Shown here: positions 49,763 through 49,810 of the stretch, in pieces
How the letters are laid out: every line of letters begins with the position of its first letter
Position numbering within the stretch: position 1 is the stretch's first letter
Origin: Kitasatospora sp. NBC_00458
Lineage (GTDB): Bacteria; Actinomycetota; Actinomycetes; Streptomycetales; Streptomycetaceae
Assembly (NCBI RefSeq): GCF_036013975.1
Contig: NZ_CP107904.1
Coordinates: 2,976,001 to 3,040,000, forward strand
Direction: 5' to 3'
Length of the DNA: 64,000 bases
Notes under the pieces: model-generated
Databases searched by the model: none
Told to the model about the DNA's origin: nothing
What the model saw: the letters and a program-made list of their open reading frames with translations, nothing else
Made by a program: the position numbers and the translations under genes

Positions 49763-49810
49763 CTACAGGCCCTCGACGCGGCAGCTAAGAAGAAGCAGCC
49801 CGATGCGCAT
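49763..49810 (-). CDS. leuL: leuA leader peptide
   Basis: A 15-codon frame [15 protein letters not shown] with four consecutive leucine codons, three of them CTT, a rare codon in such GC-rich genomes, and another Leu at the end. GGGGACC lies upstream of its ATG. It ends 152 nt before leuA. A leader of this kind allows leucine supply to be sensed by ribosome stalling (attenuation). The stop codon is inside a GAGGG...CCCTC inverted repeat at 49742-49774. Confidence 0.75.

Follow-up and report, generated by a model that had tools for sequence, protein, structure and literature searches.

The question raised by this locus is how a very short open reading frame with a run of leucine codons, located ahead of leuA on the reverse strand of a Kitasatospora genome, might control the gene that follows it. 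The original prediction described a leader peptide frame with four consecutive leucine codons, three of them CTT, 152 nt ahead of leuA, and the sequence of the window (the whole 64 kb stretch of DNA analysed) confirmed this description. The leader and the gene comprise the following features:

49763..49810, minus strand: leader of the leuL type, ATG at 49810 and TAG at 49763; an LLL leader occurs at 223/226 leuA loci
49787..49798, minus strand: sensor codon run CTG CTT CTT CTT, based on codon counts by position and background codon usage
47805..49610, minus strand: leuA, 2-isopropylmalate synthase, 601 aa from ATG (NF002991, E 8.6e-260; TIGR00970, E 7.5e-248)
49619..49631, minus strand: candidate ribosome-binding region AGGAAGCCGAGAC ahead of leuA, with CGAGAC 8 nt from the ATG; a weak match (score -2.75)

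The gap of 152 nt extends from the leader to the leuA ATG at 49610. Among the ATG/GTG frames of up to 30 codons on both strands of the window, the leader alone contains LLLL, and CTTCTTCTT has a single occurrence in the 64 kb. CTT was expected to be a rare codon, and it is: the window's leuA uses it for 0 of its 44 Leu codons, and its share of Leu codons is 1.0% in a Streptomyces-heavy background and 1.8% in a diverse one. The gene downstream of the leader encodes a 2-isopropylmalate synthase of the TIGR00970 type, the closest named relatives of which are Kitasatospora and Streptomyces records (93-95% identity), and a leuA match is present in all 70 genus genomes. The open frames looked at for a leader-leuA fusion by frameshifting vary in length.

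The locus is not without precedent. An element named LEU, consisting of a leader ORF with a Leu run and a two-helix pseudoknot, was reported ahead of leuA in most Actinobacteria (Seliverstov et al., 2005; PMC1262725), and the accessible text of that report describes the same arrangement upstream of leuA as is seen here. Both components were found in the window: the leader ORF with its Leu run lies upstream of leuA, and the arms of the pseudoknot are present with one mismatch in helix P2. The leader LeuL1 of Streptomyces lividans TK24 is, according to the portion of the report available, an orthologue differing by two residues, leaderless and with no typical terminator; the spacer between leader and gene is longer in Kitasatospora (PMC8079986). 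The leuL of Corynebacterium glutamicum encodes a MTSRANLLLLRRGGSQRS leader, and the leuA RNA rises together with the leader in starvation; in the accessible parts of these papers the mechanism is assumed to be anti-terminator formation (PMC8709942, PMC6892785, PMC4046766). The feature in the window belongs to this LEU element/LeuL group, already described in kind, and the view that such a system is less well studied in actinomycetes does not quite hold here, given LeuL1 of S. lividans (PMC8079986) and the LEU element of 2005 (PMC1262725).

Conservation of the short frame among relatives, the absence of which had been named as grounds for dismissing it, was checked on 226 leuA loci, of which 30 belong to the window's genus (its own copy counted), 80 come from named genomes and 116 were sampled at one genome per species in order and class samples; the named records partly duplicate other genomes within the 226. 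At 223 of these loci the leader has LLL or a longer run, giving 207 distinct leaders. The three loci without LLL (L217-L219, one genus) match the model of the element and have a run of CTT CTT only. The last codon of the run is CTT in 198/207 distinct leaders and the fourth from last is CTG in 140/146. The positions between them are more variable, the third-from-last being CTT in 133, CTC in 52 and CTG in 21 of the 207 leaders, and the second-from-last CTT in 98 and CTC in 97.

After the run, the nucleotides are better kept than the residues across the class. The second codon past the run is NGC in 203/207 leaders, encoding Cys (147), Arg (35), Ser (17) or Gly (4), the third is CGC in 193 distinct leaders, and the fourth is mostly GGC, GTC, GAC or AGC (Gly, Val, Asp, Ser); NGC followed by CGC stands directly after the run in 111/120 leaders. 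Arrest of the ribosome by the nascent peptide through the tail Ser-Cys-Arg-Gly-Glu, which is well conserved in the Streptomyces and Kitasatospora loci, is made very improbable by the class-wide NGC that outlasts the residues and by changes in P2 that compensate each other.

A covariance model of the element (R1) matched 70/70 genus genomes at E 1e-4 or better and 122/128 sampled class genomes at E 0.05. In the phylum sample 33/246 genomes matched at E 0.01, and only two genomes outside the class had a match below 1e-4. Two matches, L364 in the window's own genome (E 0.15) and L361 (E 5.1e-4), looked spurious on reading and were rejected; L362 (E 0.0012), which lies beyond the class at another leuA type, is doubtful and was left out of the counts.

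The geometry of the promoter bears on where the transcript begins:

49821..49826, minus strand: -10-like hexamer TACGCT, 10 nt ahead of the leader ATG, in a leaderless-type geometry common to relatives

When the range of 6-11 nt ahead of the leader start was searched for a TAnnnT box, the end of the box was found 6-10 nt ahead of the start in 138/151 non-redundant loci (vs. 5.5 in shuffled sequences) and in 57/68 diverse loci (vs. 2.8). A Shine-Dalgarno (SD)-like 4-mer precedes the leader start in just 3/68 loci. These patterns suggest leaderless transcription, with the start at or a few nt from the leader ATG; LeuL1 of S. lividans was mapped as leaderless (PMC8079986). Transcription starting downstream of the leader, the other ground named for dismissing the frame, seems by analogy unlikely because the box adjoins the leader start in 138 of the 151 loci.

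The 3' half of the leader overlaps a second kind of structure, the parts of which are as follows in the window:

49771..49781, minus strand: P2 5' arm, in the leader (Arg-Val-Glu codons), with one U.C mismatch; based on pairing with 49735-49745 and covariation
49748..49754, minus strand: P3 5' arm GGCCGGC, in the P2 loop past the leader stop; based on folding and covariation
49735..49745, minus strand: P2 3' arm CCTCGCCGCGG; based on pairing and covariation
49679..49734, minus strand: L3 of the pseudoknot, only part of it conserved; based on alignments and spacer lengths
49672..49678, minus strand: P3 3' arm GCCGGCC; based on the window fold and the arm-swap test

P2 is formed by CCGCGGCGAGG (the leader's Arg-Gly-Glu codons) and CCTCGCCGCGG, and P3 by GGCCGGC of the P2 loop and a segment 3' of P2, which together give an H-type pseudoknot. 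The inverted repeat in which the leader had been said to end is P2 itself: 49771-49781 pairs with 49735-49745 in 10 of 11 positions, and the Val codon GTC produces the one U.C mismatch. The same mismatch occurs at that codon in 27/203 distinct leaders, those of the window's close relatives among them. L3 is longer in Kitasatospora than in most relatives outside the genus. The run is separated from P2 by 5 nt (6 nt in four rows of alignment A1). Measured from the end of the P2 5' arm in 68 loci, the stop codon of the leader begins 1-7 nt downstream in 63 and 13 nt downstream in one; in the other 4 it begins within the arm.

The alignment for alternative stems called for by the original prediction was carried out and revealed P2 and P3 as covarying. 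It relied on a diverse set of 70/86 loci remaining after an 80% identity filter. The 68-locus counts omit L167 and L174 (P2 arm misplaced), and the 64-locus folding sets also L195, L207, L211 and L213 (leuA start misassigned). In the 68 diverse loci, own arms of P2 pair at -20.3 kcal/mol and swapped arms at -16.8, and own arms of P3 at -14.2 vs. -12.7 kcal/mol; for each helix 0/2000 permutations were as good, while the mirrored P3 loop control gave 732/2000, and kinship among the sequences means that such permutation counts, like the binomial ones, overstate independence. The candidates for A1 were 63 of the 68 loci, five with long loops being omitted, and A1 holds 58 of these 63 (without L029, L153, L216, L220 and L221); alignment A2 holds 20 of 25 candidates, one of them shortened. 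In the 58 sequences of A1, 96.3% of cells pair and both sides have changed in 11 of 18 pairs. None of 500 shuffles equalled the observed pairing, and every slide was lower, in a control that favours the structure since this was picked by eye from the same sequences. With a tree-based null, column-pair covariation in 151 sequences (Streptomycetaceae-heavy) made no helix significant alone. The P2/P3 pairs ranked near the top of that test together with lineage pairs, and the only pair whose expected count fell under 0.1 does not correspond to a base pair. The split of Streptomycetaceae from the rest dominated the result, and the thinned, diverse sets were then relied on. On this comparative evidence, the 3' half of the leader is conserved as RNA, P2 and P3 constituting a covarying H-type pseudoknot.

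The reading that we favour, with better than even though far from full confidence, is ribosome-mediated control through a pseudoknot switch, the window holding the leuA copy of the actinobacterial LEU element. The transcript would begin at the leader ATG or no more than a few nt away, and the ribosome would read the short Leu-codon run ending in the rare CTT. P2 would begin five nt past the run, its 5' arm being made of the leader's Arg-x-Glu codons with the stop codon just after. Scarcity of charged tRNA-Leu would make the ribosome wait on the run, so that the pseudoknot can form; with ample leucine, the ribosome would go on to the stop, cover the P2 5' arm and open the knot. Such a switch would set leuA expression, on in starvation. 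The comparison of loci shows the codon run, its spacing, P2 and P3, the stop position and the promoter geometry. That they form one switch fits the data because the spacing is near-fixed, the stop lies right after the P2 5' arm and the run is exchangeable; the switching itself and its direction we infer, and its output might be Rho-dependent termination, leuA translation, or both.

Of the proposal that leucyl-tRNA supply controls the gene, the sensing part stands as the best reading because the Leu run is conserved, the promoter is of the leaderless type and the last codon is CTT in 198/207 leaders; the part that invoked classical attenuation fell, no intrinsic terminator having been found and a pseudoknot lying 5 nt past the run. 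The leader is rich in the pathway amino acid, as in a classical attenuator, and an intrinsic terminator was not found by pattern in the region 49550-50000 of the window. TTTT, as a sign of a U-rich terminator, occurs in 7/68 leuA, 1/10 leuB and 0/4 leuC spacers examined, the last two counts covering 10 of 26 leuB and 4 of 7 leuC elements. Rfam release 15 gave no match at the gathering score in the window, six leuA loci and five other loci (no T-box family match in the window), and none up to E 1 in one leuA upstream region. Leaderless cysteine leader-ORF attenuators, reportedly described in mycobacteria by Canestrari in 2020, are likewise short ORFs with codons of the amino acid; we know of no pseudoknot in them, and they respond to cysteine, not leucine.

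For the output step, Rho-dependent termination is our first guess and translation of the next gene the second. Rho is common in this bacterial group, no terminator was found and the distance to the next start varies at leuB, and these are the reasons for placing Rho first. In this scheme, which is compatible with the ribosome switch and concerns its output only, the ribosome would leave at the stop and expose C-rich RNA (the P2 3' arm and the region downstream). We regard it as possible, somewhat short of probable. The absence of a U-rich terminator and the variable distance at leuB speak for it, as does the attenuator-type leader transcript ahead of leuA in the accessible portions of published work on C. 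glutamicum.

Published expression data agree with induction in starvation: in a C. glutamicum strain free of (p)ppGpp, the transcripts of leuA and leuL are raised after 5 min of total starvation, and in the parent strain the trend is weaker and not significant, as given in the accessible portions (PMC8709942, PMC6892785, PMC4046766). The S. coelicolor mutants of 1999 count against the ribosome-switch reading; as cited in the available part of the 2005 paper, they had some effect on leuA, inconsistent with classical attenuation (PMC1262725). Also against this reading stand the mismatch in the window's P2, the terminator that was looked for and not found, and, from the folding described below, the nearly unchanged access to the ribosome site in the window, the 17/64 loci in which access fails to rise on stalling and the want of another partner for the P2 3' arm. 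As far as the searched literature shows, the regulation of leuA in Streptomyces and relatives has been a puzzle since those mutants and the prediction of 2005, one that the wider set of elements described below makes testable.

A translational switch of another design, in which the Leu codons pair with the leuA SD in a base stem and a ribosome stalled on the codons frees the site, is in our opinion unlikely. It can draw on the folding of 64 diverse loci, where the mean Leu:SD pairing falls from 0.41 for the natural runs to 0.13 when every Leu codon is CTG, and where blocking the run raises the mean access of the SD from 0.24 to 0.36, with a rise in 47/64 loci and none in 17/64. Against it, the Leu codons do not coevolve with their own leuA SD (528/2000 permutations as good), and random synonymous runs, with GC-rich codon usage assumed, pair just as well in isolation (-8.49 vs. 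-8.04). In the window the Leu:SD pairing is 0.00, and access to the ribosome site is 0.32 free and 0.30 stalled in the nested folding model. In addition, the run at leuB consists of Val/Ile/Leu codons, and the next start there can lie about 300 nt off. The base stem of Leu codons and SD in the accessible part of the 2005 report thus lacks support from coevolution here (PMC1262725). Natural runs pair better than all-CTG runs in the full fold, and the pairing may have a secondary role. Sequestration of the leuA SD by the P2 3' arm with the ribosome at the stop was considered and rejected, as the pairing is 0.13 at the stop and 0.25 stalled; nothing else was found with which the P2 3' arm, once freed, could pair.

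Why CTT should end the run can be approached through other leaders of the order. For leuS of the order and genus, 57/57 leaders (21 distinct) have CTT as their final Leu codon, as do 18/18 ilvB leaders, 17 of which have the run ATT CTC GTA CTT; in this the two attenuators resemble the leuA leader. The leuS counts come from 60 loci, one without an anchor and two anchored without a leader, and the ilvB counts from 30 loci, nine without an anchor and three without a leader by pattern. Many leuS leaders lead into a GC hairpin and T run within 70 nt, whereas none was found at leuA. The window genome's own leuS (L269) has the leader MRTVRLLLSRPR (CTG CTC CTT) with a hairpin and T run downstream, apparently a classical attenuator in the same genome. 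Retention of the rare CTT for SD pairing was rejected as unsupported: coevolution is absent, and leuS and ilvB leaders likewise have CTT as their final Leu codon. That three leaders with unlike RNA surroundings share this codon speaks for decoding and not for pairing, although the bacterial lineages are related and the shared CTT represents few independent events. CTT and the common CTC are probably read by one tRNA. A pattern search for tRNA T-arms in this genome gave 205 matches vs. 35 in the control. Theory and Salmonella data on the choice of leader codons are available (Elf and Ehrenberg, 2005; PMC1183508).

The element is not confined to the canonical leuA. Around selected matches of two models, 74 stretches were fetched, and the counts from them describe what was fetched, not frequencies: the element lies ahead of leuB in 26 cases, with 3 more where leuB would fall beyond the stretch, ahead of leuC in 7, of another leuA type in 3 and of a stand-alone LeuA_dimer protein in 2. 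The leuB, leuC and other leuA genes were assigned by motif, and NCBIfam confirmed the ones checked (3 leuB, 2 leuC and 1 TIGR00973-type leuA). P2 and P3 also hold in 41 distinct elements situated elsewhere than at the canonical leuA, among them one at a leuA paralogue and three at the other leuA type; each helix gave 0/2000 permutations as good, and the mirrored control 192/2000. At leuC the run is Leu-rich and ends in CTT in 7/7. At leuB it consists of Val/Ile/Leu codons and includes the rare GTA, ATT and CTT; in 20 distinct leaders GTA accounts for 18 of 28 Val codons and ATT for 9 of 19 Ile codons, the background shares being 2.2% of Val and 4.7% of Ile. The distance from the leuB element to the next start varies and can be about 300 nt.

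The accessible text of the 2005 report places the LEU element at leuA and at one transposase gene, whereas here it is also found at leuB, leuC and others (PMC1262725). A literature search for leuB and leuC leaders, in a collection that covers few subscription journals, gave nothing beyond leuA among the papers listed. Within the accessible parts of the literature searched (PMC1262725, PMC8079986, PMC4046766, PMC3890552, PMC6892785, PMC5784534, PMC8709942, PMC13236596, PMC1183508), the element at other leucine genes with swapped codons is new. Evidence against the base stem as the general principle likewise goes beyond that literature, the available portion of PMC1262725 included.

These observations also bear on the proposal that a regulatory protein or a small molecule binds the pseudoknot, with the leader peptide secondary; the authors in 2005 favoured a regulatory protein, as stated in the available part of their paper (PMC1262725). 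In its favour, the pseudoknot is kept though the codon run changes, but the run matches the amino acids of the pathway and is rich in rare codons, and the stop codon and spacing are nearly fixed, so that we find the proposal improbable. Returning to the ribosome switch, we are evenly divided over a more general formulation, in which the LEU element would be a portable transducer lacking a terminator: a fixed H-type pseudoknot 5 nt past an exchangeable codon run, attached to leuA, leuA paralogues, a distant leuA type, leuB, leuC and a stand-alone LeuA regulatory domain, and re-tuned by codon swap, with Leu alone at leuA and leuC and Val/Ile/Leu with the rare GTA and ATT at leuB. In this formulation the pseudoknot, located at the ribosome entry side, would itself make the stall at the final, rare codon more pronounced. 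If this is true, actinobacteria have a class of attenuator with separable sensor and output, which could explain the non-classical behaviour of the Leu-codon mutants, and placing the leuB run at leuA should change the amino acid sensed and leave the pseudoknot unchanged. C. glutamicum, an industrial leucine producer, has a leader of the same kind, and knowledge of the output step would help strain building.

The window genome itself carries a second element at L351:5157-5237 (7083656-7083736; E 9.6e-9) with the leader MQSWSLLLGGRSGV, preceding a leuA paralogue at 7083949 that is 56% identical to leuA. Frames that match a Mrr-type endonuclease and a Roadblock/LC7 domain are situated within the 15 kb fetched around L351. 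Two matches of the element are present in 18/70 genus genomes, and by coordinate comparison 17 of the 18 second copies stand beside a leuA paralogue; no leuA was found after the remaining one (L455). The latter, L455:261-347 (G049:C234), has the leader MQTWRLLLGGRSGV and no leuA among the frames listed downstream, and might be an orphan whose leuA paralogue was lost.

L368, L369 and L370 have only weak canonical-leuA matches and carry the element before the other leuA type (L370 is TIGR00973; L368 and L369 were typed by motif). Because the element is found at this other leuA type, the RNA seems to follow function rather than gene lineage. The stand-alone LeuA_dimer (PF08502) proteins at L355:3184-3621 (minus strand) and L376:510-905 (plus strand), with E-values of 7.7e-6 and 2.4e-6, just above the cut-off, resemble the regulatory domain of LeuA minus the enzyme, and the elements upstream of them have Val-rich runs.

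Finally, a conserved microprotein frame, mostly of 20-45 codons and with a motif like ALQEAMDRRD, lies between the element and leuB in 26 of the 29 leuB-linked loci (L352, L354, L365-L367, L371, L372, L375, L378-L389, L391, L393, L397, L399, L405 and L415), its start being uncertain at L375, L387, L405 and L415. Four examples had no matches in Pfam or NCBIfam. Among 23 distinct blocks of the microprotein, differences fall predominantly on third codon positions (1197 vs. 582 and 354).
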